Of a stretch of DNA of 64,000 nucleotides, positions 12,638 through 64,000 are shown piece by piece; the stretch's first letter is position 1; each line of letters starts with the position of its first letter. Source of the DNA: Thelephora terrestris (Eukaryota > Basidiomycota > Agaricomycetes > Thelephorales > Thelephoraceae); NCBI GenBank assembly GCA_015956445.1, contig WIUZ02000001.1, positions 4,402,001 to 4,466,000 on the forward strand. Direction: 5' to 3'. The notes under the pieces were generated by a model that searched no databases, was not told where the DNA came from, and was given only the letters and a program-made list of their open reading frames with translations. A program made the translations under genes and the position numbers.

Positions 12638-14684
12638 TCATTCTGAATGAGAGGAAGGAGAAGCGTCACCCTTCTCGAGAGCAGGGCTATCGAACGAGTC
12701 GGAGGGTGATGCGATGTGGTGTTTTCTTGAAATGAGCGGCTGCAAGATGTTCCAAACCGTGTTGAAGAACATGACGATGACGGTGATTGAAAAGATGACC
12801 GCGGTGACGATCCCGACGGCCACCCTAGGAATCGCCTTGACTCCCAGTGATGGTAGAAAGGCGATCATCAAACCCGTACATACGAGCCTGACAACAGCCA
12901 AGTATCCCGCAAGGATGTCCGCCTTCCGTGTCTGGTAGGGTTTGAGGACGATGATGCTGATGAACAGCAGTCCCTCCAGGATGACGAGGACAATAACCTG
13001 CATCTCGCCATGCGCCTGGCCGAATGCGATGAAGACGGACTTTGCAAGGAGGGCAACGAGCAGGGGGATGAAGTACCAGTGCCGCTCAGAACGATATTGG
13101 CCCCACAATGGTGCATGGTATGGCCAAGCGTCGAAGTCTGAACAGCGGAACGCCAGGAACGTGGAGTATCCGATGAAACCGATTACGGGAAGTAGGAGGA
13201 TGACAGATAGGAGGACGGAGAGCCAAGAGTCCTTGAGGGTCCATTGAAAGAAGGAAAAGGTAACGACAGGAAAAGCCACAATGAGCGTCTAGTAGAGGGA
13301 GTGAGTTCCGCACCGGAAGTTAATCAGAACGATTCACAACGCACCAAACGAAGCAACCACGTTTTGACAAACGCTGTGCGATTGAACTCTACTGAAGCGA
13401 AACGTTCAGAGCCGCCGAGACCAGCATTGCGCAGAAGCCGCAGCACCAAGTACGTGATTCCAACTATTGCAAATGCGGCGCCGAATAAAATGAGGGTGAC
13501 AAAGAACACGTTCATAAAGGCGTTTTCCTCCGGAATTCCGATGGTCGTAAGCCAGATCGGAATGCCCTGTTTGATGGTGTTGGCTGATGTCACGGTCTGG
13601 ACGTCTGTGGCAGCGAGAACTACGGTGTCATTGAGATGGGCCGTCCCGATGGCATCCTCCGAACGGTAGAACACAGCACCCTCCATGAAAGACGCAATGC
13701 GAACAGTGGGCAAGTTATTCAAAGCGTTGTACGGGCTGGCTTTACGATTTGTCAGTGCGAGGGCGTTCCCGGCATCGTTATCTAGATGGCCGCCTGTGCG
13801 GTTGCGCATGTCGTTGATCGCAGTTTGAACGGTAGGAGGGAGGAAGAACCCAAGGGCCCACCGAAAGTTGAACGTGAAGGAGCGATATACGATGGGGTAA
13901 TTGAGGTTAAGCAACCCGGACGCGGCGATCGCCTGGAAGAGGTAAACAATGTCGATGAAGCGATGTGGAGCGATGGAGTCCGGCTTTCTCGATTGCCACA
14001 GTGCAGAGATGAATGCAAGGAAGGCTACAGCTCCAGTTGCCCACTCCACGGCAGGTTCGTTTGTGGTCCACCCGTTAGATAAAGTGGCTTGGACGCAAGC
14101 TTTGACGTCACCGGTCCCGACCTCGATGAGAGTGAGTTGAACGAAAGCCTCCAAATCGGGAATCTTGTACGCAATGGCGGGGATGTAGGAGGAAACGTCC
14201 AGATAACGTGTTAGAGGGATGGAGTCCTCCCCGATGAAATTGTACATCGGCAAGGGGCAGAGGGCACCATGGGCAAGCGAGCACAGGTCGACAGTAAGAT
14301 TAAAGGGGTGCATGCCATATACGTTCACGAACAGGTTAGCAGAAACGTTCACATTCGGTTCCTAGATGAAAAAGGGCAAGGTTAGCCGCTAGGTTATTTT
14401 CCTGATATGGGCTGAACCGACCACACTGGCGGCAGATATGTTGAAACTGATTGAAGAATTGGCGGCAAAGTAGGCGATGTCGAATTGTTGGATTAGGAGA
14501 GATTCTGGAGGTTCGCAGTATGATACAGAGGTCGTAACTAGGGAAGGGTGAGTGAGTGAATGCGGAGGGTTGTGAACGCGAACGTACATAAGGATTCTTC
14601 ACGAGCATTGACGGAGATTGTGAAGGCAAGAAGGGCGAGGGCCAATAGTCGCAGCCGGGCGACAGCAAGAAGAAACAAAGTCAT
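12638..14684 (-). CDS. TRP-like membrane channel of the fungal Flc/Pkd2 family
   Basis: This family (ML-like TRP_N domain plus TRP transmembrane domain) includes Flc and Pkd2 proteins, linked to calcium, FAD transport and cell-wall integrity. The start at 14684 gives a signal peptide (MTLFLLAVARLRLLALALLA). The ML-like domain follows: SVSYCEPPESLLIQQFDIAY, ISFNISAASV, NLFVNVYGMHPFNLTVDLCS and CPLPMYNFIG. About nine hydrophobic segments come next, among them AVEWATGAVAFLAFISALW, VFFVTLILFGAAFAIVGITY, SVILLLPVIGFIGYSTFLAF and VAVGIVTAVIFSITVIVMFF. The cytoplasmic tail is short and Ser-rich (SPSDSFDSPALEKGDASP). Several N-glycosylation sites lie in the luminal parts. An intron separates the part ending near 13324 from the last exon. 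The gene shares a divergent promoter with ATP5. Subfamily (Flc or Pkd2) cannot be decided by eye. Confidence 0.85.
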
Positions 14685-55243: not shown

Positions 55244-55250
55244 TTAACAG
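55058..55250. repeat. 50-bp direct repeat around the NLR stop codon
   Basis: CACCAAGGTGCTGGACGATG... at 55058-55107 recurs as CACCAAGATGCTGGACGATA... at 55201-55250, both ending GTTAACAG. The offset is 143 bp. The second copy contains the NLR stop codon (55244-55246). The sequence between them includes short inverted pieces (AAGTCAAGTCATT and GACTTGTTGATT). It is probably a local duplication of the gene's 3' end. Confidence 0.65.
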
Positions 55251-58200
55251 GTGAGAGGAGCACAAATTGTTTCTGGGAGCCCACCATTGGAATCAGATTT
55301 GCTAGAGGGAGAGAGACTTTCCGTGGCTTCCTCGATCTTCCGGAGGAGACCTCTAGACTCTTCAAGATACTTCGGATTCCCAAGCTTCTCGAAGATCTCT
55401 TGGGCGCGTAGAGCCTCGGACTCCGCACCTTCGAGCATGTGTTGTCGATACCAAATCTGGGCCTGCAGAAGAGCGGCGCGGCCCAAGTAGTAGGCGTTAT
55501 CGGGCGTGTACGACTTGGCTCGCTCGACGTGAACCTGTGCGTCATCAAACCCGTCTTCATCGAGGAAAAACACCGCCAACGATAGGTGGATCCCGAACAG
55601 GGAGGGTTGCCAATCGAACGTGGATGAGATTTCGAGCGCCACTTTATAATGGTGGACGGCCTTCTCCCTCTCCCGCTTGAAACGATATACCTCACTGAGG
55701 GCGTGATGAGACGCACAGACCATATACTCTTCGCCTTTCTCTGGGAGGAGACCGATCGATTGGACGATGGCTTCTTCTGCAGCGTTGAGCTGTCCGTCTG
55801 CTTGCAACAATCGAGCAAGGGCACTCAAACACCGGGCACGGTCTAGCGTTTCACCTAGCCGCTCGAAAATTCCCAATGCTTCCCTCGCCTGGTGTACCCC
55901 TTCTTCGTAGCGGCCCAACATCACATTCGCATTGGACAAGTTCCTCAACATGATAGCAACAAAAATGTCGTCCCCCCACTCTCTCCCAAGCCTCAAGGCG
56001 TGGCTAAGAAGCAATGTTTCTTCCGTGTAATTACCGGCATCAGGAAGATGGCTGTCAAATGTTTTTTGACGTGCACTTTTCGCGACTTCCCATCGCTTAT
56101 TTGACACTTTATTACTATATTTGGTTCGTCAACTTCTCAAGATCCACGACATAACTTCTAGAAGTACGTACTTTTCCCTTCTTTCTGCCTTTTCTTGCAA
56201 TAACTTACGAAAAGAATGAGAAAAGCCATAAAACACTCATTCCCAACTATCCTGATGGGTTACTCTGGATAACAACACAAGCGAGAACAAGCATCCAGGC
56301 TTGAAGCGATGAGTTTCGGGAAGTCCCTCTATCTTCGCCTTCAGCACAGTCTGCCGCAGTTTGTACCACCAGAGGTGATCCATAAAACTGATGCAAACAT
56401 TCCAGATCTCATTTGAGCCCGGATTGAGAGATATGAAGACATCGAGCAGATGCTTGATGTTCACATCCTCTGACATGATCCATCGCCCTTCTTCAAATCC
56501 AGGTAGGCTGGGATCGAGTTCGACAGACAGCCGGGCGAAGTAACGCTCCTTGGTCGCGCAGAGTAGTGCAGACGTCATCGGGTCTTTGGGACGAAGGTGG
56601 TCTCGGAGCGGGGCAAGCATCGTGATGAACCCGTTGCTTCGATATGTCAGGGAAAGAATGCAAAATTTGTCGAAGACATAACTTGCGTTGGGGAGGTTGG
56701 GGAATAACCAGTCGAAGTTGTTCTCGTCAACGCCCTGCGGGTAGAAGGCAACAACCCCGAGCAGCCCTCGAGCGTCAGGTCCGAGCTCTTTGAACATTGG
56801 AGAGGTGAGTGAAAGCTCGATCGTAGTGGCGAGGCTCGTCTTGTGCTCCGTCTGCAGCATGCCCGTTTGATGTTTCTCCCACGCCCCGACCAATTGACTG
56901 TTGTCCCACCTGTTTTGATGCGCGACGGTGGCCAGTAGGGTGACTGAGAGGGGATGGAAGTCAAGTTCCTTCAGGATATTTTTGGCCGACTCCGACTGCT
57001 CGCCGTGCTTGTAGATGTTATAGAATGTGTCGTGCGCGGCCCCAGTCGATAGCGTCGGAACATCGATAGTTTCGCAATTCGGAGGGATAGTTGTGATGCG
57101 GGACGTGATGACTAGACAGATGTTGCTAAATTGGCTCAGTTCCTCCACAAAACGATAGATCTCCTGCCCGTCGACTCCCTTTGGGTCGAGAATCAACTCG
57201 GCGTTGTCTAGCACTATGAACATTTCCTTAGAAGACAGGACTGGTCGGAGAGGGGTCAGGTCTTCGGGGTTTTCGATGCCTGCACCTATGGCCTTGGAGA
57301 GTCGAGAGAGAAAATGGGTAGACGAAGTCAGAAACTGGTCACAGCGAATGAATCTGCGGTTTTCGCCGAACCATTCCTTTATGCAGTCGTGGTGGAGAGC
57401 AATTAGGGCGACGGATGTCTTCCCGATACCACCTGCACCAATGAGAGCGATTGGAGTAAGACTTTCAGCGAAACTAACAATCTTCTCGATCAGCTCTCCG
57501 CGACCGAAACAGGCCCGCGGAGGCGGGGGAGGTGATTCTCCGGATATGCTGTCATCATCAGTAAGGCGCTGAATAAATTGACGGTCACGATCGCAGACCT
57601 TATTCGAGTCTAGGCGGTAGTCAGGGTTCATTCAGCGATGAATAGGGCACGGTGGTCACTCACAACCAGATTCATACTTTCAGCCACACTGTCCTGATGT
57701 TCCACCACAGTGCGATGGATTTCTGAAGCGATGTTCTGGGTTTTTAGCACCGCCGCATGGGTATTTATCGCAAGTTCGGTCTGGGGACAGATCTTTAGCA
57801 ATTTGAATGCAGAGGTGATTGAACGCACGTTGAAGACATGAAGGATCCTGTTAAGGTCCGACTTCCAAACAACAATCGTCTCCTTGTCCTCCTTGGCGTG
57901 GAAAGTTCGAGACATAGTGCTTCGCTCGCCCAGCCTATCGAAGTCCTCCTTGATCGCTGTCACAGTTCTTCGTTTGAAATGGTAAGCAAGTCAGGCGTAG
58001 TGTACCTCTCTGGTACCTTTACTCACGTCGTCAGTTGCTCAATCGCTTCAAATACAGACAGGCTAAATTGATCCGTTTGTCGACCGTGCATCCCCCGATC
58101 AAGAGCCCTACAGACATCAGCGCAGGCCAACCCTAGCTCGACGTAGTTAATTTTTTTGGCCGAAGAGTCCTACTCACATGAGCCAGCATTCACTAAACAC

Positions 58201-60253: not shown

Positions 60254-61219
60254 ATGGATATTGACCGGCTGGGCAATCTTCGTCGAGCATACGAAGAGCT
60301 GGAGAGGCGCGTTCAACGGGCTCTCAACACGCAAGTGGGCGACAGCGTTCGTTTGACTGAGGCTCAGAATGAGGTCTTGTCGTATAGCCAAGCTGTCGAG
60401 CGGGTCTGTAAAATACTCCTCTGGCTAAAAAAGGTGTAATAACATAAATTTGAACATATGTTGTAGCACTCCCACCTCTTCTTGCCCGAAGAACTCTCAC
60501 ATTGCCGGCAAAACACAGAATCGATGACAAATTACTTGGACCGAGCACGGCATGCCTCCAGCGACCCACTGGAAGACGCAGCTATTCCGTTCGTAAGCAT
60601 CGTTAGAACTGGTAAACGCGGACGTCCAAGGGTTGAGATAGAGCCAAATCTGCTCTCAACTGCTCTTTCGTTGCGACCGAAGACAAAGGTTGCAAAGACT
60701 GCAAGTTGTTCAGCTCGAACCATCCGTAGAAGACAGCTGGACTATGGGATTGAGATGCCCGGAGCAAGCCATCCCCATCCCCAACAGGTTGGCAGAGATA
60801 ACACCAACTCTCTCCCCCACTCAGAAGAAATCAGCGACGAGGAACTTGACCGGTGTTTGGCCATCGTCATACAAGATTTTCCCTCTTTTGGACGACGGAT
60901 GGCGACATCATGTCTTCGAGAAAACGGTGTTATGGTTTCGGAGGCACGTGTGAGGGAGTCGTTTCTCCGAACCAGTGGAGTTCCTGGCACATTTGGCGGT
61001 CGAAGGGTCCACCGCCGCAGGTATCAGGTAGCTGGCGCTAACTCGCTCTGGCATCATGACGGTCAACACGGTATTTGTCGTGCCCAGACGCCAGCATTTG
61101 AAAGACTTAACTAGCCCTAGGCTTAATTCGATGGAAGATTGTGATCCACGCATTTGTTGACGGCAAGAGTCGACTGGTGGTTGGCATCCGAGCCAATAAT
61201 AACAACCGCGCAGATCAAT
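60254..61219 (+). mobile_element. Broken integrase-core (DDE) transposon gene
   Basis: The N-terminal region has the GKRGRPRVEIEP motif and a helix-turn-helix-like stretch (AKTASCSARTIRRRQLDYGI), followed by a conserved middle (RRYQVAGANSLWHHDGQHG) and then the catalytic-core part (WKIVIHAFVDGKSRLV). This is the plan of integrase-core transposase genes common in fungi and animals. The element is broken and its 3' part is missing, so it is inactive. No terminal repeats were identified, and its age cannot be estimated beyond saying that the coding sequence is still easy to recognise. Confidence 0.7.
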
Positions 61220-61349
61220 AGCTTCAGCTCAGTTAATACAAAAGAGCAAGCTTGTTAGCTCATCAATTTATGCAATTCTGCCAGTTAAAAAGCTTTTGTA
61301 AAAGTGGGTCATGCCTGGTGTGCCAGGCTGGGTGCGCTTACCTAATAAA

Positions 61350-61860
61350 AAAGATTAAATGGCCAGAAATACCAAAAATGAAACCTCCACGGTTTAGTGA
61401 ATATACCAAAAAGGAAAGGTTGATGGCTGACATAAGCGAGTCACATGACTGAAAAAAAGTGGATGTTGCTTATGTAATCAGGTCATGTGACCAACCAAAA
61501 AAGGAAAGTTTGATGGCTTACATAAGTGTTTCAAAAAGCTTTTGGGGGGTCTTTCCCAAAAAGGAAATTCCTTTTTGGGAAATATTTGATGGATTACCAA
61601 AAAAAGGAAATTTTGATGGCTTACATAAACAACTCAGAAACAGTTTTGGAATGAAATTTCCAAAAAAGGCAATTTAATGGATTACATAAGCGACTCAGAA
61701 ATGGTTCTGGAGAAATTACCAAAAAAGGAAATTTCCTTTTTAGGAAAGACTTTCCAAAATAGGAAATTTGATGGCTTACATAAGCAACTCAGAAATGGTT
61801 TTGGCAAAATTACCAAAAAAGAAATTTTCCCAAAAAGGAAATTATATGCCAGAAACCTCG
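61350..61860 (+). repeat. A-rich tandem array, about 60-100 bp degenerate unit
   Basis: A unit of the form GATGGCTTACATAAGC-AACTCAGAAATGGTTTTGG followed by ACCAAAAAAGGAAATTT recurs at about 61423, 61511, 61614, 61677 and 61769 with variable length. Some units hold inverted AAAAGGAAATTCC/GGAAATTTCC pieces. The open frames read through it and are artefacts of the repeat. Confidence 0.7.
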
Positions 61861-62240
61861 GAAAAATGCCAGAAAAATCCCAAAAAATACTGAAAAAATT
61901 CCCACAGGTCCAGAAAGCATCAAAAATCTCAATTAAAACCCAGAAATACTCAAATAAATCCTTTTACTGGCTGGAAAATGCTGGAAAATTTCCGAAAAAA
62001 TCACCAAAAATTCCACATTAAATACAAAAAACTTATGAAATTATTTCAAATTATTTCCTCAATTAAACAACCCATAATTCAAAATAAACATATTTTTGGC
62101 TCCTAAAAATGCATAAAAATTCCAAAAATTGTCAAAAATTCCTAACATGAATAAAATCTTTAACTACCAATATCAACTATAGTCACAGTAACTAGGTAAG
62201 CCACAAATTTCCTACAATCTTCATTACAAAATTAAGCATA
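61861..62240. other. AT-rich spacer before the large inverted repeat
   Basis: About 380 bp of A-rich sequence with AAAATCC/AAAAATTCC words, without gene or clear repeat. It contrasts sharply with the GC content of the core genes. Confidence 0.4.
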
Positions 62241-63029
62241 GATCTGTTCGTGGTCATAGCCTAACCATAAACCTAACCTGCCCTAAACCTAACCTGCCCT
62301 AAACCTAACCTGCCCTAAACCTAACCTGCCCTAAACCTAACCCCAACCCTAATCTAACCTAAACCTAAACCTAACCCCAATCCTAATCTAACCTAAACCT
62401 AACCTCACCTACCCTAACCTAACCTAATCTAACCTAAACCCAACCTAACCTCACCTAACCTAAACCTAACCTGACCTAACCTAACTCAATCCAAAAAACC
62501 TACAGTGGTTCACTTAACCTATCTTATCCTTATCTTATCTGATCTTATCTGATCTAATTGACCTAACCCTGTCCAACCTAACCTCAACCTAACCCAGAAC
62601 ACCTAACCTAGTTCACTAACCTGACTTGGCCTGGCCTGGCCAAATCTGACCCAATCTTATCTAACCTGTCCTTATCTTATCTTATCTTATCTTATCTTAT
62701 CTTATCTTGTCTAATCCAGTCTAACCTTATCTGACCTTGATCTAAAATTCTTTAACCCACCCTGTTACAGCCCAACCTCACCCAACTCACCAACATGTGG
62801 GTTGGGCTACAGGAACACAATGTGAACCACAACCCCCCATGCTGTGTGCACAACCATCACTCAAGCACTCCTATCTGCTGGATCCACCTGTCAGTAGACC
62901 TACAAGCCCACAGACCCACACACATATAGACCTATAACTCAGTGGAAATGTCAATTAACCAAACCTGCCCACTGACCACCCTCACTCCATCACTGTCAAA
63001 ATACTGCAGCTTGCACACAGCTCAAGTCT
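62241..63029. repeat. Left arm of a large near-perfect inverted repeat
   Basis: It runs from GATCTGTTCGTGGTCATAGC through CCTAAACCTAACCTGCC repeats, CCTAACC variants, a (CTTAT)n microsatellite at 62671-62708 and about 270 bp of unique sequence to CTGCAGCTTGCACACAGCTC. Its reverse complement is found at 63127-64000 with only a few short indels and substitutions. Confidence 0.85.
62264..62480 (+). repeat. Telomere-like CCTAAC-variant repeats (left arm)
   Basis: Units such as CCTAAACCTAACCTGCC and CCTAACCTCACC recur. They are variants of, not identical to, the fungal telomere repeat CCCTAA. The mirror copy at about 63657-63985 is longer. Confidence 0.7.
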
Positions 63030-63126
63030 ATCCACAAGGCTGACCACAGGTTGGTTGGGGAACACTACCAAGTTATAGGACTATGAACTTGTAGGCCTGT
63101 GAGTTTATGGGCCCAACCATATGGGT
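63030..63126. other. Spacer (loop) of the large inverted repeat
   Basis: About 97 bp between the arms, where pairing fades. Short partial similarities suggest the spacer edges are themselves decayed arm sequence. Confidence 0.6.
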
Positions 63127-64000
63127 GAACTTGAGTTGTGTGCAAGCTGCAGTATTTTGACAGTGATGGAGTGAGGGTGGTCAGTGGGCAGGTTTGGTTA
63201 ATTGACATTTCCACTGAGTTATAGGTCTATATGTGTGTGGGTCTGTGGGCTTGTAGGTCTACTGACAGGTGGATCCAGCAGATAGGAGTGCTTGAGTGAT
63301 GGTTGTGCACACAGCATGGGGGGTTGTGGTTCACATTGTGTTCCTGTAGCCCAACCCACATGTTGGTGAGTTGGGTGAGGTTGGGCTGTAACAGGGTGGG
63401 TTAAAGAATTTTAGATCAAGGTCAGATAAGGTTAGACTGGATTAGACAAGATAAGATAAGATAAGATAAGATAAGATAAGATAAGGACAGGTTAGATAAG
63501 ATTGGGTCAGATTTGGCCAGGCCAGGCCAAGTCAGGTTAGTGAACTAGGTTAGGTGTTCTGGGTTAGGTTGAGGTTAGGTTGGACAGGGTTAGGTCAATT
63601 AGATCAGATAAGATAAGGATAAGATAGGTTAAGTGAACCACTGTAGGTTTTTTTGGATTGAGTTAGGTTAGGTCAGGTTAGGTTTAGGTTAGGTGAGGTT
63701 AGGTTTGGGTTTAGGTTAGATTAGGTTAGGTTAGGGTAGGTGAGGTTAGGTTTAGGTTAGATTAGGATTGGGGTTAGGTTTAGGTTTAGGTTAGATTAGG
63801 GTTGGGATTAGGTTTAGGGCAGGTTAGGTTTAGGGCAGGTTAGGTTTAGGGCAGGTTAGGTTTAGGGCAGGTTAGGTTTAGGGCAGGTTAGGTTTAGGGC
63901 AGGTTTAGGGCAGGTTTAGGTTAGGTTAGGTTAGGTTTAGAGCAGGTTTAGGTTTAGGGCAGGTTCAGGTTTATGGTTAGGCTATGACCACGAACAGATC
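63127..64000. repeat. Right arm of the large inverted repeat, reaching the window end
   Basis: Reverse complement of the left arm. It includes (GATAA)n at 63448-63485 and GGTTTAGGGCAGGTTAG repeats at about 63800-63960, which are more numerous than in the left arm. Pairing continues to the last base (GACCACGAACAGATC), so the repeat probably extends beyond the window. Confidence 0.85.

Follow-up and report, generated by a model that had tools for sequence, protein, structure and literature searches.

A near-perfect palindrome in the Thelephora terrestris genome is probably a non-autonomous foldback DNA transposon

The long palindrome at the right edge of the window is quite probably a non-autonomous foldback DNA transposon which belongs to a dispersed family, is moved by a KDZ transposase and has its arms maintained by recombination. 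The window is the whole stretch of 64,000 nucleotides that was analysed, that is, C1:4402001-4466000 of the 40.6-Mb assembly with its 60 contigs. A foldback element was among the explanations offered by an earlier sequence-only reading of this DNA, and target-site duplications, dispersed copies and defined termini now support it.

Structure of the palindrome

The following features were located. Positions past the window edge are given as equivalents.

61123..61215, plus strand: coding stretch of 31 codons in the interrupted integrase-core gene, the last before the insertion and closing with the duplication (PF24764 match)
61209..61215, plus strand: left copy of the target-site duplication, CGCAGAT, 7 bp (L013 3210-3216)
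61216..64000, no strand: in-window part of the foldback element, ends set by the duplication; runs on to the equivalent of 65032
61270..63042, plus strand: left palindrome arm (blastn match)
62260..62485, plus strand: telomere-like C-rich array of CCTAA / ACCCTAAACCTAACCT units in the left arm (tandem arrays)
62671..62716, plus strand: CTTAT array in the left arm (tandem arrays)
63043..63113, no strand: loop of 71 nt between the arms (arm comparison)
63114..64000, minus strand: in-window part of the right arm (arm comparison, blastn)
63440..63485, minus strand: GATAA array in the right arm, mirroring the CTTAT array (tandem arrays)
63662..63937, in a longer row to 63973, minus strand: telomere-like G-rich array in the right arm (tandem arrays, CCTAA/TTAGG-type)
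Equivalent of 65033-65039, past the window: right copy of the target-site duplication (L013 7034-7040)

Comparison of the window with itself gives ungapped arms at 62539-63042 and 63114-63617, which are 98% complementary over 504 nt and separated by 71 nt, and a second ungapped block (62265-62443 and 63705-63883) with 99% complementarity. The palindrome had been described as near-perfect with arms of about 0.8 kb. The palindrome is indeed present, but its arms are about 1.8-1.9 kb long, because the self-match extends over DNA past the window edge: a single gapped blastn match runs from window position 61270 to the equivalent of 64978 with 92.9% identity and 4046 bits (L013 3271-6979). The palindrome forms the central part of an element of 3,817 bp, which starts at 61216 and, as the description of a palindrome open at the window edge implied, continues to the equivalent of 65032. 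Most of this element consists of two long inverted repeats flanking a short middle, which is the architecture of a foldback element. The central loop itself is not palindromic.

Over the whole element, the left arm and the reversed right arm align with 1793 matches, 56 mismatches and 119 gap columns. The mismatches lie in the outer 100 columns (23) and in the last columns, at the central loop (25), with only 8 in between. One gap of 93 nt and one of 10 nt both fall in repeats and the remaining gaps measure 1-3 nt, in agreement with the earlier description of arms that differ mainly by repeat copy number and small indels. The telomere-like repeats noticed on the arms correspond to the CCTAA/TTAGG-type arrays at 62260-62485 and 63662-63937. 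Scans of the window with Rfam (gathering threshold) and for tRNAs gave no match.

Insertion site

GCGCAGAT is present just beyond each arm of the palindrome. With element ends CAATAGC... and ...GCTGCTG, the exact duplication is the 7-bp sequence CGCAGAT, and the window copy thus carries a target-site duplication at its insertion, as a foldback transposon should. Both flanks read as pieces of one gene. When the flanks are joined, with one copy of the duplication kept and one apparent intron removed, the product gives a PF24764 match (integrase core, rva_4; 4.1e-54) that covers residues 1-165 of 166. Elsewhere in the window, a TPR frame adjoins a weak nSTAND1 frame (below the Pfam cut-off) and there is a TRP-channel-like gene (55244-57631 and 13324-14352); these look like ordinary host genes.

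A second copy of the locus with its flanks is found on contig C59, where 7,457 aligned columns, reaching the edge of the compared stretch, are 99.65% identical. A mere overlap of contigs C1 and C59 was considered and rejected. Two places sampled farther right do not match, which makes a segmental duplication of 7.4 kb or more the likelier reading. As a separate observation, L018 (C22:120000-129900) and L019 (C8:926000-935900) are 99.93% identical over 9.8 kb in opposite orientation near contig ends; they are probably overlapping contigs or haplotypes, and contig overlap may be the explanation.

A dispersed family with several terminal types

The window palindrome has at least 165 matches in its own genome (40 of 272 candidates scored). 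Apart from those on C1 and C59, the family matches shown have 65-83% identity. Many of these dispersed relatives have defined termini of the form CA..TG. The relatives have inner arms in common, yet at least three different terminal sequences are found. Type A/B has the ends CATTAGTGG and CAGCTGTGG. Type C, the commonest subfamily, has CAGTAGTNCTTATTAAAA, for which 91 + 93 hits were obtained versus 14 + 18 with the reversed control (at most 2 mismatches); the first 100 C-type hits listed form 42 facing pairs, 28 of them spaced 3.2-4.2 kb. The third type is represented by the ends of the window copy itself, whose outer ~180 bp match only the C1 and C59 copies among 79 matches (40 of 202 candidates scored).

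Some individual copies deserve mention. L048 (C1:4223697-4224855) is a 1.16-kb derivative with arms 99.9% identical, which has neither the telomere-like part nor a duplication. The C-type copy at C16:590314-597975 (L047 1-1757 and 6134-7890; C16:590200-598100) has arms which are 100% identical, and its inverted repeat continues for at least 114 identical bases into the flanks, either as an extension of the palindrome or as a local assembly fold. The middles of L045 and L047 contain other repeat frames. The 24.8-kb candidate at C56:1262176-1287108 was discarded as an autonomous copy; judged by its reverse transcriptase- and integrase-like frames, 9.9 kb of this stretch (L046) reads as a nested LTR retrotransposon.

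Target-site duplications across the family

We compared the flanks of 20 C-type end pairs which had been picked from the hit list before the flanks were seen. An exact duplication of 7 bp was found in seven and of 8 bp in one, versus none in 380 mismatched left-right pairings. In a second set of 17 loci, nine had an exact duplication (mismatched pairings, 0/272). As one locus is common to both sets, the joined sets comprise 36 rather than 37 insertions, with an exact 7- or 8-bp duplication in 16 and in none of 652 mismatched pairings. Fifteen of the 16 exact duplications are 7 bp long and one is 8 bp; they are thus not the ~9-bp duplications expected for Mutator or FB elements. The count omits L033/L034 and L037/L038, in which both ends are of type B and so do not belong to a single element, as well as L039 and L040, which are ends without a partner. 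The 20 of 36 end pairs without an exact duplication count against a simple picture. Ectopic recombination between copies would remove duplications, and such recombination has been reported for Galileo in the accessible part of the literature on this element (PMC2775673).

The likely transposase

The element at C3:1044747-1057121 joins the palindromic copies to a transposase gene. It is 12.4 kb long, has C-type ends, is flanked by the 7-bp duplication GCCGTGA and has terminal inverted repeats which are perfect over 1,283 bp (L089 48-1330). Over the outermost 120-160 bp it agrees with the ends of the C-type palindromic copies at 81-86% identity. Its interior encodes a KDZ domain (PF18758, 1.1e-34) together with a CxC2 cysteine cluster (2.5e-24). 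A nested palindrome interrupts the KDZ domain, with the break falling between profile positions 103 and 104. A frame of 335 aa on the same strand, which has no Pfam match and ends 40 bp away from the inner boundary of the repeat, is taken for the probable end of the interrupted KDZ gene. The sole KDZ element seen with family ends hence carries an interrupted transposase gene.

Because this one element combines C-type ends, the duplication, inverted repeats and a KDZ gene, the family most likely consists of non-autonomous foldback KDZ transposons which appear Kyakuja-like in duplication length and termini. Only for the C-type subfamily did we find matching ends on an element that encodes a KDZ transposase. 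The termini of the window copy match no KDZ element (among 79 matches, 40 of 202 candidates scored). Its link to KDZ is indirect, because its outer ~180 bp occur only in the C1 and C59 copies, and would run solely through the common inner arms, the duplication length and the CA..TG ends.

The nested palindrome in L089 is a member of another palindromic family, unrelated to the first, whose ends are CACTGGGGGCA..CAGTG and of which we noted three copies (L089 3348-4187, L025 7569-8888, L047 3901-4742). By eye, two of them have 3-bp duplications, ATA in L089 and TCA in L025, which would fit a CACTA-like group. A further KDZ match at C18:306212 lies 37 bases from a C-type end, but its frame suggests that a C-type element inserted into a KDZ gene and it was therefore not counted as a partner.

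We considered whether the foldback transposon might instead be of the P/Galileo, Mutator/FB or hAT kind (the last with 7-bp duplications), the KDZ element having the same ends merely through exchange of terminal sequences. The terminal sequences of the window copy, which are not common to its relatives, speak for this. Moreover, the available text on Galileo, a member of the P superfamily, describes foldback-like copies with 7-bp and sometimes 8-bp duplications (PMC4168063), and hAT families with 7-bp duplications are known from rust fungi according to the portion of the source at hand (PMC12730594). Against this, the single coding element with family ends encodes KDZ and CxC2, and four frames searched in it gave no P or hAT match. 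The hAT domain (PF05699) is also rare in this genome, with 3 matches. The presence of further transposase families counts against the KDZ reading: besides 125 matches for KDZ there are 132 for Plavaka (PF18759) and 15 for DUF6589 (PF20231), with the overlap of Plavaka and hAT matches with the listed ends judged by eye. The KDZ, Plavaka and DUF6589 matches, together with the rva_4 gene, point to a basidiomycete and probably to an agaricomycete. The P-type profile PF21787 has no match in this genome but is likewise silent in all 14 control genomes, so that its silence here speaks against no P-type transposase. Mutator duplications are about 9 bp long. Another superfamily is thus, in our view, unlikely.

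Recombination between the arms

In all 11 elements compared, identity between the left and right arms is 94.9-100% (median 100%), measured over the part that matches L005 627-1410 and with two of the 11 being second copies of the same locus. Arms of different elements have a median identity of 88.7% (n = 212, range 79.3-97.3%, overlapping the first range; the 8 cross-comparisons between two copies of the same locus are left out). In a tree, from which L092 was omitted as its match is too short, the arms cluster by locus except for L008, L020 and L021.

The A/B subfamily allows a closer view: as its ends and its loop are asymmetric, flips and conversion tracts leave a record in its copies. Seen from the A end, the loop has one orientation in L005 and L021 and the opposite one in L006, L008, L018 and L020 (in L008 and L020, one of the ends falls just beyond the analysed stretch and was identified separately). 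The arms were then scored at 107 sites, picked because they distinguish L005 from L018. In L008, L020 and L021 the arms are alike in the outer half, and the inner half has one arm of each type, with the switch at about the same place in all three elements. L006 is a mixture of the L005 and L018 types in which both arms are alike.

Within the A/B subfamily, homogenisation of the arms is patchy and the centre occurs in both orientations with respect to the ends, from which we conclude that the arms recombine with each other. Flips of the centre together with conversion tracts explain the loop and mosaic patterns. We infer that the mixed state is older. Alternatively, it may have arisen by exchange between elements; L008 and L021 retain exact duplications nonetheless.

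We suggest that the elements are propagated as follows. A KDZ transposase of the Kyakuja-like kind, acting in trans, would cut at the CA..TG ends and the element would move by cut-and-paste. Gene conversion and crossing-over between the arms could then keep the palindrome near perfect, with arm exchange proceeding through a cruciform, a hairpin or fold-back repair synthesis. We read both kinds of array, telomere-like and CTTAT, as expanded subterminal repeats, and one may conjecture that they serve as protein-binding sites.

Chimeric long reads also yield near-perfect palindromes, and the sequence-only reading had named a long-read hairpin artefact as one possible cause. Several arm indels fall in homopolymers, and at C16:590314-597975 the 114 flank bases are inverted and identical as well. 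That the assembly was misled by hairpin or foldback reads is nevertheless highly improbable. The flanks of the window copy differ and are linked by a 7-bp duplication within a gene, the loop is not palindromic and the arms are unequal in repeat number. Furthermore, the dispersed relatives have flanks of their own and arm differences of 0-5%, and the locus is present a second time on C59.

Telomere-like repeats

Four TTAGGG units in a row, with at most one mismatch, were found 111 times in the genome versus 2 times for the control. Among 100 listed runs at least 78 lie inside elements, as judged by an arm or end positioned as expected no more than 3.5 kb away; for the other 22, the matches listed include no such arm or end. 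All 26 neighbouring array pairs within 10 kb, again among the 100 listed hits, are C-rich on the left and G-rich on the right. This is the layout of the two ends of one linear chromosome and the opposite of joined ends. The earlier description of the C-rich strand on the left, mirrored in the right arm, therefore holds for the orientation itself but not for its interpretation as two ends meeting, as the repeats face outward.

A head-to-head fusion of two chromosome ends or subtelomeres, suggested by the telomere-like units on each arm, can be dismissed: the arrays face outward, the 81 listed hits on contigs whose length is known all keep at least 53 kb away from the nearest contig end, about 106 kb separate the window locus from the end of C1, and the insertion of the element has split a gene and left a 7-bp duplication. 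No telomeric run was found at the terminus in the 12 contig-end stretches examined.

The concentration of listed runs within elements and the uniformly outward pairs favour a bolder idea, which we regard as very unlikely to be correct: the KDZ foldback family might have taken up telomeric repeats that face outward like those of a tiny linear chromosome and might use them for capping, extrachromosomal persistence or new telomeres. If so, a copy that is excised or broken could bear a telomere seed at each end, receive caps and survive as extrachromosomal DNA; alternatively, a copy could supply a new telomere where a chromosome breaks within it. Whatever their role, such telomere-like runs in chromosome interiors can lead telomere calling and scaffolding astray.

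Comparison with known systems

Foldback elements are already known in other superfamilies. The FB elements of Drosophila, which are related to Mutator, resemble the palindromes described here in having long inverted repeats made of tandem repeats with little or no middle, but differ from them by duplications of about 9 bp and a Mutator-type transposase. Galileo, a P superfamily element of Drosophila, shares with our family the 7-bp (rarely 8-bp) duplications, the long inverted repeats, the foldback-like copies and rearrangement through the repeats, as far as described in the accessible parts of two papers (PMC4168063, PMC2775673). In contrast, Galileo has a P-type transposase and an insect host, whereas the coding relative found here is KDZ.

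The KDZ1, KDZ2 and KDZ3 elements of Cryptococcus likewise have a KDZ transposase and inverted repeats, in their case of 139-241 bp. Unlike our elements they have a CxC1 domain and duplications of 8 bp or 4-8 bp, and the available part of the report describes no foldback copies (PMC12810828). The Kyakuja families of Agaricomycotina are similar in their 7-bp duplications and 5'-CA..TG-3' termini, which are found here together with a KDZ transposase in the element with C-type ends; these families, among them those of Laccaria, are described, in the text available to us, without terminal inverted repeats (PMC12730594). Here, the coding element has perfect inverted repeats of 1,283 bp and the other copies are almost wholly palindromic. 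Because of these repeats we provisionally file the family as KDZ, Kyakuja-like in two features, and not as Kyakuja.

In the literature searched, with papers accessible in part, we recognised no description of foldback KDZ elements, and as far as seen there a KDZ foldback element with telomere-like arms is new. It joins foldback palindromes with the KDZ transposons, a group which is expanded in this genome and reported to be common in mushroom-forming fungi, and it offers a palindrome whose arm-to-arm recombination can be read from its sequence.
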